A stretch of DNA of 35,419 nucleotides. Source: an uncultured Spartobacteria bacterium (GTDB lineage: Bacteria > Verrucomicrobiota > Verrucomicrobiia > Chthoniobacterales > Terrimicrobiaceae). Positions 7,020 through 15,563 of the stretch are shown piece by piece; position 1 is the stretch's first letter; each line of letters opens with the position of its first letter. A model generated the notes under the pieces. The model ran no database searches, had not been told where the DNA came from, and worked only from the letters and a program-made list of their open reading frames with translations. A program made the position numbers and the translations under genes. Where the stretch lies: NCBI GenBank assembly GCA_937888355.1, contig CALAPX010000026.1, forward strand, positions 1 through 35,419, read 5' to 3'.

Positions 7020-8054
7020 CTAATCAAGCGTCGGCGCGCCCGGCTGAGTATGATCGGCATGCAATAAGTTGGAGTTCGCGCTGGGGTGGAGCTTGGGCAT
7101 TACCGAAAGCGTAATGGGATTTCCATCTCTCACGACTTCGATCTGAGTTGGTTCGCCAGCCGTGAGAAAATATGATGCATCTAAAATATCCTCGCAGGTA
7201 GCAACCGGCCGCCCTCCGATGCTCAGGATAATATCGCCTACGCCTAGGCTTGGGGACTCGCCGGGATCTGCGGAGACAAGTCTAGAAATGCGCGCAGTCG
7301 AGCCCCTGATAGGCTCGATATCATCCTCGACCTCGGCACCGACCCAACCGGGCCGAATCTCCCCGAAGCGAAATATATCCTGCCGCACTTTTTCCGCAGC
7401 TTCGATTGGAAGAATAAAGCAGGAGGCACCACCTCCAAGTTGGGAGATGACAATGCCAACAACCCGCCCATCCAATCCGAGAACAGGGCTTCCTCCCTGT
7501 CCCCGGTGCACAGCTAGGTTCGCGCGGAGGTGGGAAGTTGAAAAAAAACGGCCCATGTGGTGCTTGTCGCGAGCTGCTATCATGCCCAAGCAGGGGGTCG
7601 CATCAAAATCTTCCGGGTAACCGATAGAGATCACAGGGGTGCCTTGCTTGACGCTGAGTGAGTTGCCTATGGAAAGAAACGGACTAATGCAGTCGGTTTT
7701 CAGCATAGCGATGCCGCTTCGTTCATCGGCTGCAAGGACAGTGGCTACCAGGGACCGGCCGTTGAAAATGACGCGAACTTCATGAGCTTTCGTGACAACA
7801 GCGGAGTGAGTATAAATTGTGCCCACGGGATCGATAAAAAATCCGCTTCCAAATCGGACACCAAGGTCATCGCACGCCCTTACCCGAACAACAGCTGGAC
7901 AATTTCTTTTGAAGACACAATCGATTTGCGCCTGAAATCCAGAAGCTTCTGATGTTGACAGCTGGGCTTGCGCCGACTCCATCGTTCCTAGCACCAAGAT
8001 ACCTAGGGACAGCAGAAAAAATGCCGCAGGGTTAGAAACTGCGTGACGAGACAT
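7020..8054 (-). CDS. HtrA/DegP-like PDZ protein lacking the catalytic triad (pseudoprotease)
   Basis: The 344-residue protein has a signal peptide (about residues 1-30, ending AQA), a trypsin-like fold (about 45-215) and one PDZ domain (about 232-325, PGWVGAEVEDD to LSVMPKL). Aligned by eye to DegP, the catalytic His of TNNHVV is Ala85 (THSAVV), the Asp of SDIAL is Gly114 (SGIAM), and the Ser of GNSGG is Gly187 (GQGGSP). All three residues are therefore absent while the fold markers around them remain. It should act in the periplasm, perhaps as a peptide-binding sensor or chaperone, not as a protease. It is third in an operon with an ECF sigma gene and overlaps the membrane-protein gene before it by 23 bases. 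The reading frame is intact, so I do not call it a pseudogene. Confidence 0.82.
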   Translation of the reverse strand: MSRHAVSNPAAFFLLSLGILVLGTMESAQAQLSTSEASGFQAQIDCVFKRNCPAVVRVRACDDLGVRFGSGFFIDPVGTIYTHSAVVTKAHEVRVIFNGRSLVATVLAADERSGIAMLKTDCISPFLSIGNSLSVKQGTPVISIGYPEDFDATPCLGMIAARDKHHMGRFFSTSHLRANLAVHRGQGGSPVLGLDGRVVGIVISQLGGGASCFILPIEAAEKVRQDIFRFGEIRPGWVGAEVEDDIEPIRGSTARISRLVSADPGESPSLGVGDIILSIGGRPVATCEDILDASYFLTAGEPTQIEVVRDGNPITLSVMPKLHPSANSNLLHADHTQPGAPTLD

Positions 8055-8454
8055 AACTAATCGGTCTTCCCGGGAGAATATATTGCACAGAACCCAAGGG
8101 CTTTTCTGGGCGTATGGATATTTGCGGGAGAGTAAGCGACGATGCAGCAGCGGCTAAGCTAAAGGAGGGGAACTCGGTGGGGGCCACAAGAGCCACTTCA
8201 CTTTCAGGGTCAACAAACAAGGCACTGGCTAGCGCAACCACTGCGACAGAAGTCGCCAAGGCAAAGCGGGAGACCACCGGCAGAGCAAAAAACCCCGATG
8301 CCCTATCACAAATAATTGACCATAATGGCCTTTGAATTACTTCGGCGCGTTGTCGGCATTGAAACTCTGCAAGAAAATCCTCAAAATAACCGGGCGGTGG
8401 TTGTTCGTAGCGTTTAAGCCGAAGAAGGCGGGAGACGCTTTCATTTGGTTCCAT
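8032..8454 (-). CDS. Small single-pass membrane protein, candidate anti-sigma factor
   Basis: This protein of about 140 residues has an N-terminal charged part (EPNESVSRLLRLKRYEQPPP, then GYFEDFLAEFQCRQR), one membrane helix (about residues 60-80, FALATSVAVVALASALFV) and a short outer part without recognisable domains. No zinc anti-sigma HxxxCxxC motif is present. Its place between an ECF sigma gene and a secreted HtrA-like gene is that of an RseA-type anti-sigma factor, and that is the only basis for the functional guess. The ATG at 8454 is used. A TTG at 8463 overlapping the sigma stop as TTGA is an equally plausible coupled start. Its 3' end overlaps the HtrA-like gene. Confidence 0.7.
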   Translation of the reverse strand: MEPNESVSRLLRLKRYEQPPPGYFEDFLAEFQCRQRAEVIQRPLWSIICDRASGFFALPVVSRFALATSVAVVALASALFVDPESEVALVAPTEFPSFSLAAAASSLTLPQISIRPEKPLGSVQYILPGRPISYVSSRSF

Positions 8455-8459
8455 ATCGA

Positions 8460-9044
8460 TCAACGGTTAATAAACTCCTGGAGGTAGATTTGCAACTGCT
8501 TGTGGGCATAAAATAGACGGGATCGCACAGTCCCCTCTGAGACTTTTAGGATTTTTGCTATTTCCGCATGAGGGATTCCTTGGATATCAAACATGGTGAC
8601 GACGGCTCTGTGATCATGGGACAGCTTCAGGAGGGATTCGTTCAGTTTTTTTTGCAGTTCTCCAAGATTTGCTTCGCTGCTGGGATCATTTGAGCTGGTA
8701 GCTTCAATGAAATCGGGATCATTGAGAACACCATTATTGATGTCATCAAGGCTCATCGCGCGCCGACGGTTCCTTTTTTTAAGGAAGTTGATTGTCATGT
8801 TCACTGAGATTGTGTGCATCCAGGTATGAAAGGAGGATTTACCCTGGAATCCTTTAATCGAGCGGTAACCCTTGGCGAAGATATCCTGCAAGAGGTCGTT
8901 TGTGTCCTCATGGCTCGAAGTCATATTGTAGACCAACCCGTATAGGCGGGGGCTGAATCTCCTCACCAGCTCGTCATATGCTCGGGCATCACCCGCCTTG
9001 GTACGGGCGACGAGTTCATGATCTGAAGGTTCGAGCGTTTCCAT
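8460..9044 (-). CDS. ECF-type RNA polymerase sigma factor, RpoE-like
   Basis: The 194-residue protein has the two ECF domains. Region 2 (about residues 10-85) includes YDELVRRFSPRLYGLVYNMT, EDTNDLLQDIFAKGYRSI and FHTWMHTISVNMTINFLKKR. Region 4 (about 130-190) includes DIQGIPHAEIAKILKVSEGTVRSRLFYA, the helix-turn-helix that reads the -35 box. Such sigma factors direct RNA polymerase to stress promoters and are usually held by a membrane anti-sigma. The two genes behind it fit that plan. The stop at 8460 abuts or overlaps the next start. Autoregulation is likely in this group, but I could not identify a convincing ECF promoter upstream. Confidence 0.92.
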   Translation of the reverse strand: METLEPSDHELVARTKAGDARAYDELVRRFSPRLYGLVYNMTSSHEDTNDLLQDIFAKGYRSIKGFQGKSSFHTWMHTISVNMTINFLKKRNRRRAMSLDDINNGVLNDPDFIEATSSNDPSSEANLGELQKKLNESLLKLSHDHRAVVTMFDIQGIPHAEIAKILKVSEGTVRSRLFYAHKQLQIYLQEFINR

Positions 9045-9501
9045 GTGTTGCCGGCATCGTGAATGTATCGATCAGGCTGCCTCAAGCGGAGAAAAATCGA
9101 TTGTCGGACGGCTGCAACGGGCATCACCGCATGCGGCATGAAAAAACATCTCTGGATCCGGACAGCCCGGGCCCTCCAGACCTCGCTGATTTTCAGGCGA
9201 AACCAAAGGCCAAGGCTGCGCAGAAATTTTTTTAAGAAGTTGGGTGATTCGAAAATTGAAGCCTGGCACCAGATCTCCACGACCAGTATTGCCTTTGCCA
9301 GCTGGGCCTCTGTGGCGTCTCTCGAGGCCAATTGCTTCGAGTCGCGAGATGCGTTAACGCACCGCTAATAACAATGACAACGTGAGTTGTGCCGGCAGCC
9401 ACTTTTTAGAGCCAACGCAAACGCTCGCAAGTCGCCAAGGGCGAGTGATTCGATGTTGAAAAGGGTGGAGGGAGGGAGCATGGTTTCAACGTTTTTTGCA
9501 T
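9045..9501. other. 457-base gene-poor gap
   Basis: This gap lies between the divergent sigma-factor and FmdB-like genes. I see no tRNA, no clear terminator and no convincing gene. A 76-codon plus-strand frame from ATG 9138 starts with a very basic stretch but has no ribosome site and no recognisable domain. A purine-rich GGAGGGAGGGA at about 9468-9478 sits just before an out-of-frame ATG (9480) and 24 bases before the likely FmdB-like start. Promoters for both flanking genes must lie here, but none stands out. Confidence 0.5.
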
Positions 9502-10041: not shown

Positions 10042-11493
10042 TCAGGGGGCCCTTCCGACAACGATATTTGAAGAGCTGACTGCAAGCACTTCGATGGGGG
10101 AGCCGGCGTCGAGGAATTCCCCGCTGGTCATCACATCGAACATTTCTGCACCAATTTTTGCGCGGCCTGAGGGGCGGAGGATAGTGATCGCAATGCCTCT
10201 GTCGCCGACAACAACGGCGGCTTCGGTGCCCAATTCTGTAACGACTTTAGCCGAGGAGCCCTCTGGCATTTTTGAGGAAAGATACAAGCCATGCAGAAAT
10301 GGCAACGAGGGTAAAATGCGTCCCAACAGGGCAATGCCAAGCACAGATCCACCAATTGCCAGACTGAGGTTCAGCATGGGCGTTCGGAACATTTCATAGG
10401 ACACCTCGATCGGCTGGGCAGGATAAAAGTCCGCCATCGAGAAGAAAAGCGCCACGACGACCATGATCGCCCCCCCGAGCGCCAAGACCACAACGCCTGG
10501 AAAGAAGATGATTTCGAGCAGAATGAACACCACCCCAAGAACGAAGAGGGCAATCATTTCAAAGCCAGTGAGTCCCGCGATGTAGTGCCCGCCAAAGAAT
10601 AGCAGGAAACAAACCCCTGCGAGGATGCCTGCCGCTCCAAACCCGGGAGCCTTGAACTCAAGCCAGGCGCCCATTACTCCTCCCAGCAGGAGAAGCGGAG
10701 CAAGCATCGTAAGCCACTGGGCCGCTGTCTCGAATCCGGACGGCTCAATGTGCACGATACGCTCCGGGTCTAACCCACAGATAGTTGCAACAGATGGTAG
10801 ATCTGCCGCAATACCTGAGGCTAGCAACGGCTTACCAGCGATTTCGCGGGTGGCCTCCTGGGCGCTCAAGGTCAGGAGCGAGCCCTTGGGATTGATGAGT
10901 TCGCCGGCGATGATGACCTCCTTGTCGAGGTTCATGAATCCATCGACCAACTCAGGATGGTAGCCGTTTTTATGCGCCACGCTTCGGAAATAGCCTGAGA
11001 AATATGAGACGATTTTTGCGTTCATCGTCTCAGGAATTTCCTGGCCCGAGCCTGCTACTGGTGCGGCGGCTCCGATGGCACTAATGGGGGCCATGATCAC
11101 TTTTGAGGTGCCAAGGGCGATCAGCGCCCCAGCGGAGCCCGCGTTGGTGTTCACATAAGTGAAACTTCTCACGGGGGATTTGGTAAGCATTTGCACGATT
11201 TTCTCTGTGGCCTTCAAGTCGCCCCCCGGCGTGTCCATATCAAGGATGACAGCCGAAGCAGCTACTGCCTCGGCGTCTTTCAAGGCGCGCCGCAGGAAAA
11301 AAAAGCGTGCTTCGGTCACTGGGCCTTTGACGGGGAGAACAACCACTGAGCCAGAGGTGGGTTTTACCTCCGCTCCACTGGCTGACAGCATCTGGAAGGC
11401 CCAGGAAAACAACACAAAAAACCAATGCATGGTGGCGGCGCGCGATGGCCTGCCGCCATGCCTTTTCGGGGTGAAAAATGCATTGAGTTTCAT
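10042..11493 (-). CDS. NfeD-type membrane-bound ClpP-like serine protease
   Basis: The long form of NfeD has a ClpP-class protease domain, a multi-helix membrane part and a C-terminal OB-fold domain, and is thought to act in membrane protein quality control. Here about 483 residues run as signal segment (about 23-40), protease domain (about 48-245), about four or five helices (from WLTMLAPLLLLGGVMGAWLEF), then the OB domain (GTEAAVVVGDRGIAITIL to SSNIVVGRAP). DTPGGDL and NAGSAGALIALG are conserved. Ser120 and Lys160 are candidate dyad residues, spaced as in the archaeal homologue PH1510. The ATG at 11493 is preceded by GGGAG about 12 bases away. The frame extends further upstream, but that would run into dnaG and add no family sequence. 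Confidence 0.88.
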   Translation of the reverse strand: MKLNAFFTPKRHGGRPSRAATMHWFFVLFSWAFQMLSASGAEVKPTSGSVVVLPVKGPVTEARFFFLRRALKDAEAVAASAVILDMDTPGGDLKATEKIVQMLTKSPVRSFTYVNTNAGSAGALIALGTSKVIMAPISAIGAAAPVAGSGQEIPETMNAKIVSYFSGYFRSVAHKNGYHPELVDGFMNLDKEVIIAGELINPKGSLLTLSAQEATREIAGKPLLASGIAADLPSVATICGLDPERIVHIEPSGFETAAQWLTMLAPLLLLGGVMGAWLEFKAPGFGAAGILAGVCFLLFFGGHYIAGLTGFEMIALFVLGVVFILLEIIFFPGVVVLALGGAIMVVVALFFSMADFYPAQPIEVSYEMFRTPMLNLSLAIGGSVLGIALLGRILPSLPFLHGLYLSSKMPEGSSAKVVTELGTEAAVVVGDRGIAITILRPSGRAKIGAEMFDVMTSGEFLDAGSPIEVLAVSSSNIVVGRAP

Positions 11494-11544
11494 AGAAATG
11501 AAATCTCCCTCGCTCCCGTTTGACCCGCAAGGTAAATTCCCCGC
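11494..11544. promoter_or_regulatory. Divergent promoter region between the NfeD-type gene and dnaG
   Basis: Only 51 bases separate the two divergent start codons, so promoters of both genes must overlap or extend into the opposite gene. An AAGGT element at about 11529-11533 could serve as ribosome site for the dnaG GTG start, and a GGGAG reads toward NfeD. No -35/-10 pair can be assigned with confidence. Confidence 0.4.
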
Positions 11545-13341
11545 GTGGGACTCATCGCTGAAGAAACAATCCAACGTGTCGCGGATGCCACGGACATCGT
11601 CGACCTTGTTGGATCCTACTTCCCGCTCAAACGCGCGGGAACGAGCTTTCGCGCGCTGTGCCCGTTCCATCGGGAGAAGTCCCCATCCTTCCATGTGAAC
11701 CCTGCGCGGCAGTCATTTCATTGTTTCGGGTGCGGTGCCGGGGGAGGGGTATTGCGCTTTGTCATGGATTACGAGCATGTTGATTTTCCCACAGCTGTGC
11801 GCCGCTTGGCCCAGCGTGCAGGGATTCCCGTGGTCGAGGATGCACCGACCGCTGACGATGCGAAACGTCACGGCCAGCGTGAGCGCCTCTTGGCCCTGCA
11901 TGCCGAGACCGCCTCATGGTTTCATCGGAATTTGATGAAATCGCCCGATGCGGCGCATGCCAGGGACTACTTAAAAACACGAGGGATCGGTGTCGCTACC
12001 GCCAAAACTTGGCAACTCGGTTACGCGCCGGATTCTTGGGACGCGCTACTGGCGCATCTTCGCGAGCGGCGATTTTCAACCGAGGAGATCATGCTGGGAG
12101 GGTTGGCTTCATCTAAGGAAGGGGATGATGGAGCGCAGGGCCGGATTTACAGCCGTTTCCGCGGTCGCCTTATGTTTCCGATCAACAACGACTATGGTGA
12201 GGTTGTCGCTTTCAGCGGACGGGTTCTGCAGTCAGAATCCAGTGGTGCAAAGTATGTGAATTCACCTGAGACTCCGCTTTTTACGAAGGGGCGAGTGCTA
12301 TTTGGATTGGACAAAACAAAACGGGATCTCATCGAAAAAAATGCGGCCATCGTGTGCGAAGGCCAACTCGATCTCATCACCGCATTTGAGGCTGGAGTAA
12401 GAAATGTGATCGCTCCGCAGGGAACAGCCTTCACGTCCGATCAGGCTAGGTTACTCAAGAGGTATGTCGAAACAGTCTTCCTGTGCTTCGATTCCGACAT
12501 TGCTGGGAAAAAAGCTGCTGACCGTTCGCTTCCGGCATTGTTTTCACAGGGCTTGCTGGTGCGCATAGTGAGTCTTCCGCAGGGGGACGACCCCGATTCA
12601 CTGATCCGACGTGAAGGGCCCGAGGCTTTTCTTGAGAGAGTCGAGAACGCGCCGGATTATTTTGAGCATAATATCAATGAGGCAGGGCGCTCAGGGGAGC
12701 TTATCGATGCGACCGCAAAATCCCGACTTGTCCGGCGCCTGGCTCCTGCTCTTGCGTTAGTCGGGGATGCCGTGTTGCGTGAGTCCACACTGGGAAAAAT
12801 GGCCAGCCGACTGGGAGTTCCCCAAAGCACAATCCGTCAGATCATGAAAGCCCCCCCCCAAGCGAATGAGGCCCAGCCCGAGGGATCACCTTCCACAGAT
12901 ACGACTTCGCTCGAATTATCTCCCGGAATGCAGATTCTTTGCCGGCTTGCCATTCAAAGTGCCGACGTGCGTGCTTGGCTTCGTGGCCAGCAGCCGCTAG
13001 CCCGATTCGAGTCTGCTGGTGATCTTGTTGACAAAGTGGCACGTGCGGAATTCGAGGAAGGAGTCCCTTTACCAGCCGCATTTCTTGCAACGTTAGATCC
13101 CTCGGAGGAACGCGTTCTCGCTGCGTTAGCAGGTGCCCGCGCGATGCCGGAAGCGCTTGAGCGCGCTATGCAAACAGCTCAAGGAATGTTGGCCAGGCAG
13201 CTGAACCAGCAAATCGAAATCCACATGGCGGAAGTCTCAAACCGTGAATTGACAACAGAGGAACGGCAAAAAATCCAAAAACAAATTCTTGACCTGAAAA
13301 TCCGCGTGGCTGATGTTCATCGGCCCTTTGAACAGGCCTAA
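11545..13341 (+). CDS. dnaG: DNA primase
   Basis: DnaG makes the RNA primers for chromosomal replication and binds the replicative helicase. The CHC2 zinc-binding domain is complete: Cys39, His42, Cys60 and Cys63 ([12 protein letters not shown] and HCFGCGAGG). The core follows, with [27 protein letters not shown] and a TOPRIM domain ([14 protein letters not shown] at about 271, then [13 protein letters not shown]), whose Glu and Asp residues bind catalytic metal. The C-terminal ~150 residues correspond to the helicase-interaction domain and are less conserved. Length (598) is normal. The start is GTG. The gene is 11 bases upstream of rpoD, preserving the dnaG-rpoD pair of the macromolecular synthesis operon; rpsU is not present before it. 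Confidence 0.96.
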
Positions 13342-13352
13342 AGGAAAGCAAC

Positions 13353-15563
13353 TTGAAAACAAAATCCACCTCTTCGAAAAGCAAGCCACGTAAAGCGACA
13401 AAGCCGCAAAAAAGCATAAAGCCCTCCAACCTTGCTAAAAAAGCAGCTCAGCCAGCCAAAGCCAAGCCACCTGCAAGGCCGGTAAAAAAACTGCCGAAAG
13501 CGAAAAAGCCGGTCTCAGCAAAATCAAAAGTTGCTAAGGCTACAAAGAGCGTCCCAAAAACTAAAGCCCCGCTCAAAAAATCCGCTCCTTCAGTCAAAAA
13601 GGTAACCAAACCTGCACCCAAGACCCCGGCCAAGCCGGTTAAAGTTGTTTCAAAGGCAACACCTGCACAGAAAAGTTCTAAACCAGTAGCGGCAAAGTCC
13701 GCCAAGCCTGTGCCTCCCGCCAAGACGACAGCAGCCAAAACGGTGCCTATCAAAAACGCTCCCAAGAAAACGGCAGTCGAAAGCACCAACCAAAAAGCCA
13801 AGCCGGCCTCGGTATCGGAGGCGATTAAATCCATAAAAGCCAAGGCGCGCTCTGGAAAATCCGGGTCCACAAAGTCGATCTCTGCACCATTGACTCAGCA
13901 GTTGGCGGCGGTTGACATCCCGCGCATGCTTCAAGACAAGGTGCGCGAGTTGATCCGACTCGCCAAGGAGCAGGGGTATATTACTTACGAGGATTTGGAT
14001 GAGCACCTGCCCGAGGGCGTTAGCGATCCCGATCATCTTGATGTGATCATCAGCCAACTTCGCGGCGTTGAGATCGAGATCATCGAGGCATCCGATGTCG
14101 ATCGCGTAAAAGAAGTCCGAAAGGAGGACGACGAAGAAGACGACAAGGAGGAAAAAGAAAAAGAAGAAAAGGAGGAGAAAGAGGAAAAAGCAGATACCAA
14201 ACTTGATATCCTCGACGACCCGGTTCGAATGTATCTAAAGCAAATGGGTCAGGTTCCTCTGCTCACTCGCGAGCAAGAGGTTGAAATCTCCATGCGAATT
14301 GAGGCGGCCGAGCTTAAAGTGCAGGAAATGCTCTACGGATTTGGTTTTGTTGCTCGCGCGCATATTGATCTCGCCCAGAAACTCATCGACCAGCGTGAGC
14401 GTTTTGACCGCGTCATTCTGGACAAAAAAATCGAAAGCCGCGAGCGTTACATGAAAGCCCTCCCGCGCCTCTGCCAGCAACTCAAAAGGCAGATGGATAC
14501 CGTTTCCAAACTCTACAAGGAGTGCGCCCCTTTTTCTCCGACAAATGAAAAGCGCAAGAAATTCAACAAATCGCTTCAGTCTCTCCAGGCCCTTTATCCC
14601 AAGTTTTTCTTCAAACAAAAAGTCATTGAGGATTTTGTAGTCCTGGTTGAGGAGAACCACCGCGCCATGCTGAACCTGCAGAGCGAACTCAAAAAACATG
14701 CGAAGGATCCAAGTCCTAAGCTGCGGCGCCAACATTCGCTTGAGATCAAGGAGATGCAACAACGCTTCTGGCTAGCGCCAGAGGAGTTGAATGAGAAGCA
14801 CAACGAGTTGAAAGTCTGGCATCGCCGGGCCTTGAAGGCGAAGACCGAGATGGTCGAAGCGAACCTGCGACTGGTGATCTCGATTGCCAAGAAGTACACC
14901 AATCGCGGCTTGTCGTTCCTCGATCTCATCCAAGAGGGCAATATGGGCCTCATGAAGGCCGTGGAAAAATTTGAATACCGCCGCGGGTATAAATTTTCAA
15001 CCTACGCCACATGGTGGATCAGGCAGGCTATCACCCGCTCGATAGCAGATCAGGCCCGCACGATCCGTATCCCAGTCCACATGATCGAGACGATCAACAA
15101 GCTAATCAGGGTACAGAAGCAACTGGTGCAGGAATATGGCCGTGAGCCGTCTCCAGAGGAAATCTCGGACGAAATCCAGTTGCCCGTCGAGCGTGTGCGT
15201 GCCGTTCTTAAGATGGCACAGCAACCAATCTCGCTCCAAGCACCCGTTGGTGACAGCGATGATACTAGCTACGGCGATTTTATTGAGGACAAAGGTGCTG
15301 AAAACCCTGCCGACATGGCCGCAATTGTTCTGCTCAAGGACAAGATTAAGGACGTGCTGGACTCGCTTACTGAGAGAGAGCGCCAGGTGCTGGAACAGCG
15401 CTTTGGTCTTGTGGATGGATATAGCCGCACTCTTGAAGAGGTTGGTCGTCAGTTCAAGGTCACCCGCGAACGCATCCGACAGATCGAAGCCAAGGCCCTG
15501 CGCAAAATGCGCCACCCGACCCGCATCCGCCAACTTGAGGGATTCCTCGACGCGCACGAGTAG
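13353..15563 (+). CDS. rpoD: Housekeeping sigma factor RpoD with a long Lys/Ala/Pro N-terminal tail
   Basis: RpoD directs RNA polymerase to housekeeping promoters. From about residue 185 the protein is a normal sigma-70: region 1.1 ([20 protein letters not shown]), an acidic tract (about 256-280), region 1.2 ([21 protein letters not shown]), region 2 ([21 protein letters not shown] to [17 protein letters not shown]), region 3 and region 4 ([23 protein letters not shown]). In front lies a tail of about 178 residues made almost wholly of Lys, Ala, Pro, Ser, Thr and Val, like histone H1. The start is TTG, supported by AAAGGAAAG about 5 bases before it, which overlaps the dnaG stop. The two genes are thus coupled. 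The tail is in frame with the rest, with no stop or shift. Confidence 0.95.

Follow-up and report, generated by a model that had tools for sequence, protein, structure and literature searches.

What could an HtrA-like protein devoid of all three catalytic residues be doing in an operon with an ECF sigma factor and a small membrane protein? The question is raised by three consecutive minus-strand genes, at the positions first described for them, in a stretch of 35,419 nucleotides (hereafter the window) from contig CALAPX010000026.1 of an uncultured Spartobacteria bacterium, part of a 2.6-Mb assembly of 404 contigs that is 91% complete and yielded no 16S rRNA match (Table 1). The sigma factor gene is directly followed by that of a one-pass membrane protein, so that a sigma-E-type arrangement is present, and the HtrA-like gene starts within the end of the membrane protein gene, with an overlap of 23 nt. 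The start codon of the membrane protein is given as ATG, with an alternative TTG upstream, at 8463, being possible. Taking together the comparative evidence considered below, we are inclined, although not strongly, to see in the operon an old, sigma-E-like switch of Verrucomicrobiota that responds to envelope stress and whose HtrA component serves as a non-cutting guard. Further along the window (10042-15563) lie unrelated neighbours, a gene for an NfeD1b-type membrane protein followed by dnaG and rpoD, the latter two adjoining each other.

Table 1. Coordinates of the operon and of the features recognized in it (positions in the window)
Feature	Positions	Strand	Basis
ECF sigma factor, 194 aa	8460..9044	-	Sigma70_r2 1.7e-15, Sigma70_r4_2 5.2e-11
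Putative membrane anti-sigma factor, 140 aa	8032..8454	-	AlphaFold helices, alignment of divergent anti-sigmas
Anti-sigma TM helix, residues 63-80	8215..8268	-	Predicted helix and hydrophobic sequence
Anti-sigma conserved C-terminal tail, SVQYILPGRPISYVSSRSF-COOH	8035..8091	-	Terminal Phe, proposed PDZ ligand
HtrA-like protein, catalytically dead, 344 aa	7020..8054	-	Pfam domains, alignment, model
Signal peptide, residues 1-30 (AQA-Q cut)	7965..8054	-	Sequence reading; N-terminus low-confidence in the AlphaFold model
Trypsin-fold domain without catalytic triad, residues 53-230	7365..7898	-	Trypsin_2 7.4e-17
Ala85 codon, catalytic His position	7800..7802	-	Alignment with solved HtrAs, orthologues
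Gly114 codon, catalytic Asp position	7713..7715	-	Gly in 48/48 orthologues
Gly187 codon, catalytic Ser position	7494..7496	-	Alignment with solved HtrAs, orthologues
PDZ domain, residues 233-320	7095..7358	-	PDZ_2 6e-8
Promoter-like block, TTTTTCTCCGC-N16-GATA	9066..9096	-	Some 50 nt upstream of the sigma start

So is the HtrA-like protein indeed an inactivated protease? A sequence-only reading had claimed that Ala85, Gly114 and Gly187 replace the triad behind an intact signal peptide and within an intact fold with a PDZ domain, and all of this stands, on firmer ground than was claimed. In an alignment with solved HtrAs, the three residues occupy precisely the sites of the catalytic His, Asp and Ser, within motifs changed from T-N-N-H to T-H-S-A, from D-x-R-S-D to D-E-R-S-G and from G-N-S-G-G-P to G-Q-G-G-S-P; the one other HtrA found in the window genome, a protein of the DegP type, has His, Asp and Ser all present in the same alignment. 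A trypsin-like fold (Trypsin_2 match at residues 69-201) followed by a PDZ domain is found by Pfam and recovered in an AlphaFold model (mean pLDDT 86, pTM 0.81) for which the nearest solved folds in a Foldseek search are DegQ/DegP (E 2e-24), with the DegS-peptide and AlgW-peptide complexes also on the list. The orthologue search covered 58 relatives, in which the HtrA-like group (30-68% identity) is separate from the ordinary DegP-like paralogues (~25-32%), and 48 full-length orthologues were extracted. Among these Chthoniobacterales proteins, the Asp position is always occupied by Gly, the His position never by His (0/48), and the Ser position by Gly, Ala, Gln, Pro or Ile, except in the one protein that has Ser. 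Public genomes of Methylacidiphilales, including Methylacidiphilum, carry the same operon with Pro/Thr/Ser/Asp, Gly and Val/Ile at the triad positions, and 241 genomes drawn from the phylum extend the set to more families of the class and to one additional class, in which Asn stands in place of Asp. The operon-linked copies altogether retain His in 0 of 77, Asp in 0 of 77 and Ser in 1 of 77 cases, counts that do not represent independent events because the sequence sets overlap slightly, with some genomes counted twice. The ordinary HtrAs from these genomes and from relatives in the phylum have the triad intact in 17/17 cases, and a phylogenetic tree splits the operon-linked from the ordinary HtrAs cleanly (support 0.89, branch 0.97). 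Judging from these sequences, the loss of the triad is one ancient event that has been retained ever since. Two orthologues (L060 in G027, and L105) show Ser at the nucleophile position (G-E-S-G-A-P and G-Q-S-G-S-P, respectively), with His and Asp missing.

Neither an error in sequencing nor a pseudogene arisen by chance can account for the protein, given that the substitutions are seen again in all operon-linked relatives, that the frame is open and that dN/dS of the HtrA-like gene is 0.03-0.22 (13 pairs); the latter values indicate that the dead protein is under selection. The corresponding values for the adjacent membrane protein gene are 0.07-0.21 (12 pairs where computable). The sequence-only reading would have been refuted by an active site formed by other residues nearby, but one built from His83, His91 and Ser189, which it named, has to be rejected, since these residues are not conserved (His83 is His in 18/48 orthologues and His91 in 2/48, and Ser189 is Ser in 11/48). 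That the protein still is a protease, acting through yet other residues, seems extremely improbable to us: His175, which is conserved in 92% of the Chthoniobacterales orthologues, would be in its favour, but there is no conserved Ser or Cys suited as a nucleophile: at the Ser position most sequences have Gly, Ala, Val, Ile or Gln, at Ser189 most have Ala, and nothing but Gly or Asn occurs in place of the Asp. Cys212 lies outside the usual active-site loops. Together with Arg177 (95%), Cys212 (90%) and Lys222 (100%), His175 may instead belong to a binding surface within the dead trypsin domain.

Which part of the protein, then, is retained? Most of the operon copies in Verrucomicrobiales have shrunk to about 260-310 aa, and in Pfam searches these yield a PDZ_2 match (1e-8 to 1e-15) with no match to a trypsin model; the PDZ domain thus persists beyond the point at which the trypsin domain can be detected and is the part that is not lost. 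In the window protein, the carboxylate-binding loop of the PDZ domain is GWVGA, at residues 236-240, and it is conserved in the orthologues as GW[VIL]G[VI], with W237 present in 47/48 and G239 in 48/48. This suggests that the protein acts as a grip, not as scissors.

The candidate for what is gripped is the small membrane protein, presumed to be the anti-sigma factor from its position and topology. The window protein has no Pfam or NCBIfam match, hence no RseA-type domain was found, and six of its orthologues show no Pfam match above the cut-off. The AlphaFold model (pTM 0.27, confident for the helices only) places helices at residues 3-15, 23-41, 44-56 and 63-80, with low confidence for residues 85-122, and so the putative layout would be three N-terminal helices, one transmembrane helix, a disordered linker and a conserved tail. 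The aromatic C-terminus of this tail, which the sequence-only reading did not consider, is the nearer candidate for a PDZ ligand. The last residue is Phe in all 48 Chthoniobacterales orthologues, within the motif YVLPxRPVSYxSxRSF or variants with the end [FYLI][SR]F. In the window's own family, Arg occupies the second position before the terminal Phe, where the E. coli motif has Tyr, a point against the guard reading. The anti-sigmas of Methylacidiphilales end mostly in -AF and those of two other families mostly in -[VI]Y, and in an alignment of 30 divergent anti-sigmas (15-61% identity with the window protein) no positions other than R34, R36 and the terminal Phe (F140) are invariant. Conservation of the Phe merely through the gene overlap can be discarded: it persists where the genes are 5 to 174 nt apart, and the 48 orthologues encode it by TTC in 26 cases and by TTT in 22, so it is the residue and not the DNA that is conserved.

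The presence of this aromatic end is associated with that of the HtrA gene. With both labels taken from the ORF lists of the loci, a terminal Phe or Tyr of the anti-sigma is found in 91/94 loci that have the HtrA gene and in 7/22 that do not, the latter meaning that there is no adjacent gene, with a copy elsewhere in the genome possible. The Fisher test (p 4e-11) overstates this association because the sigma factor tree shows no more than about six losses of the HtrA gene; the aromatic end disappeared on that tree in or after approximately four of these losses and once with HtrA present, when it changed to Leu. The seven loci in which an aromatic end is kept with no adjacent HtrA (G049, L104, L106, L107, L111, L122 and L124) imply that another PDZ protein may read the tail, and they lend something to the explanation in which the PDZ domain of RseP or that of the active DegP-like protease reads the terminal Phe as a handle for degradation, with the dead HtrA as a competing decoy or a separate chaperone. 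Both the DegP-like protein and an M50 protein, a homologue of RseP-type site-2 proteases (Peptidase_M50 E 2.7e-47 at G000:C307), are encoded in the genome. We consider this explanation improbable nonetheless, given that the aromatic end is missing in 15 of the 22 loci without HtrA although DegP and RseP should remain there. Several Akkermansiaceae loci (L114-L118, L121 and L125-L127) have no adjacent HtrA gene and possess an anti-sigma whose tail, in many cases rich in Pro, is non-aromatic at its end; a YjbQ-like gene, identified by eye, often comes next after the operon in these loci.

The gene order itself is stable: of the 47 Chthoniobacterales loci that include this stretch, 46 have the genes for the sigma factor and the small membrane protein immediately ahead of the HtrA-like gene, and the order sigma factor, membrane anti-sigma, dead HtrA is conserved in Chthoniobacterales, Methylacidiphilales and other orders, while no other neighbour is common to more than 10 of the 48 genomes. 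Neither the sigma factor nor the HtrA-like gene is present in two genomes of 0.9 Mb with a rated completeness of 99%. In G034, the sigma factor gene sits on a different contig, and the genes for the anti-sigma and the dead HtrA remain together (L053, G034:C11, 3397-7304) behind a histidine kinase and a response regulator. DegP-type HtrAs possess chaperone activity as well, and it is conceivable that the HtrA-like protein is simply a product of the regulon, a non-proteolytic chaperone, comparable to a DegP lacking its serine, carried in the operon with no signalling role. We find this quite hard to believe in view of the erosion of the trypsin domain with the PDZ domain staying, the coupling of HtrA with the anti-sigma tail and the joint retention of the two genes in G034 after the sigma factor had moved. 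The earlier proposal of selection for a non-proteolytic, PDZ-based role linked to the anti-sigma is, in our assessment, well supported by the gene order, the purifying selection, the PDZ domain outlasting the trypsin domain and the co-loss with the sigma factor. A promoter-like block, TTTTTCTCCGC-N14..18-GATA, occurs approximately 50 nt upstream of the sigma factor gene in most genomes of the genus, and was considered as a guide to the sigma regulon; the strict pattern has a single match in nearly every genome, the window genome included, and at the sigma factor gene where this was checked, so that it is uninformative on other targets.

How might such a switch work? The PDZ domain of DegS binds YxF C-termini and that of AlgW binds WVF C-termini (PMC8545111), whereas RseB protects RseA against DegS (PMC8103513). 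We infer, as the simplest reading, that the PDZ domain of the dead HtrA holds the tail of the anti-sigma; protection of the tail and its displacement by outer membrane protein C-termini would then follow by analogy. In the resting cell, the PDZ domain would bind the terminal Phe, and the conserved segment YVLP, further upstream, may lie covered in the dead trypsin groove, a hold with no bite, such that the tail would be hidden from a site-1 protease, as RseA is by RseB. Under stress, unfolded outer membrane proteins with aromatic C-termini would compete for the PDZ domain and expose the tail, and the anti-sigma would be cut by the site-1 protease and subsequently by the RseP-like protease, setting the sigma factor free. 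It counts against this scheme that the window genome shows a single intact HtrA, of the DegP type, as a possible site-1 protease. A role of the dead HtrA PDZ domain as a sensor of misfolded C-termini is plausible, and the BamA of the window genome ends in GYQF. Control of the ECF sigma factor by competition for one PDZ groove, in which the anti-sigma Phe is held until unfolded outer membrane protein C-termini release it, remains a tentative proposal, with chances that we put a little below even. The active DegP-like protease of the window genome (L179 1907-3355, minus strand) also has an aromatic end, -ILKF, and could be a PDZ ligand too.

The main rival to the guard reading is a co-activator role, that is, a positive co-sensor in which the dead HtrA, after capture of misfolded C-termini by its PDZ domain, grips the anti-sigma tail and hands it to an active protease, as an adaptor or scaffold. 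The conservation pattern fits this scheme equally, and it has a parallel in MamO, a dead HtrA relative that stimulates proteolysis by MamE, its active partner (PMC4794232). On the other hand, a single PDZ domain could hardly hold the C-termini of an outer membrane protein and of the anti-sigma together, unless the protein is an oligomer, and we regard the co-sensor as rather unlikely.

Comparison with known systems places the guard reading in context. Like the sigma-E/RseA/RseB/DegS system of E. coli and the AlgU/MucA/MucB/AlgW system of P. aeruginosa, the module includes an ECF sigma factor and, encoded immediately after it, a presumed one-pass anti-sigma, together with an operon-borne periplasmic regulator, an HtrA-PDZ protein and aromatic C-termini, here as proposed PDZ ligands (PMC8103513, PMC8545111). 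The differences are that the third gene here encodes a dead HtrA in place of RseB/MucB, no member of that family being present in the window operon; that DegS and AlgW are active enzymes, unlike the window protein; and that the anti-sigma, in contrast to RseA, lacks the RseA domain and bears the aromatic C-terminus itself. Thus, the module resembles the RseA/RseB branch of sigma-E, yet without an RseA domain, RseB or a catalytic triad. From DegP/DegQ (HtrA family S1C), its best fold matches with the same trypsin fold and PDZ, the HtrA-like protein differs in the missing triad, the single PDZ domain and the tie to an anti-sigma gene. The nearest precedent for a repurposed HtrA is MamO of magnetotactic bacteria, which likewise was retained for another role with no catalysis, keeps His and Asp with Thr for Ser, binds metal, having a surface di-histidine site, and functions in biomineralisation (PMC4794232); the window protein, by contrast, has lost all three residues with the PDZ preserved, and differs in its gene context, MamO having no sigma/anti-sigma link. 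No equivalent ECF sigma / anti-sigma / dead HtrA module was found in the literature, mostly within open-access scope, where a search for pseudoproteases with anti-sigmas returned only unrelated work on Clostridioides and sporulation; this agrees with the earlier claim that no system of such make-up has been described. An ECF group number for the sigma factor may already exist.

If the guard hypothesis is correct, HtrA proteins can be pure sensors in sigma-factor signalling, with the HtrA fold sensing in the absence of enzyme activity, and the anti-sigma carries a built-in mimic of the stress signal. Short peptides, the anti-sigma tail against an outer membrane protein C-terminus on one PDZ domain, could probe such a catalysis-free switch. 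The family further offers a case in which catalysis was lost long ago, the loss became fixed and the protease fold then decayed with the neighbouring PDZ domain conserved, and Verrucomicrobiota would gain an apparently undescribed envelope-stress pathway of the sigma-E type.
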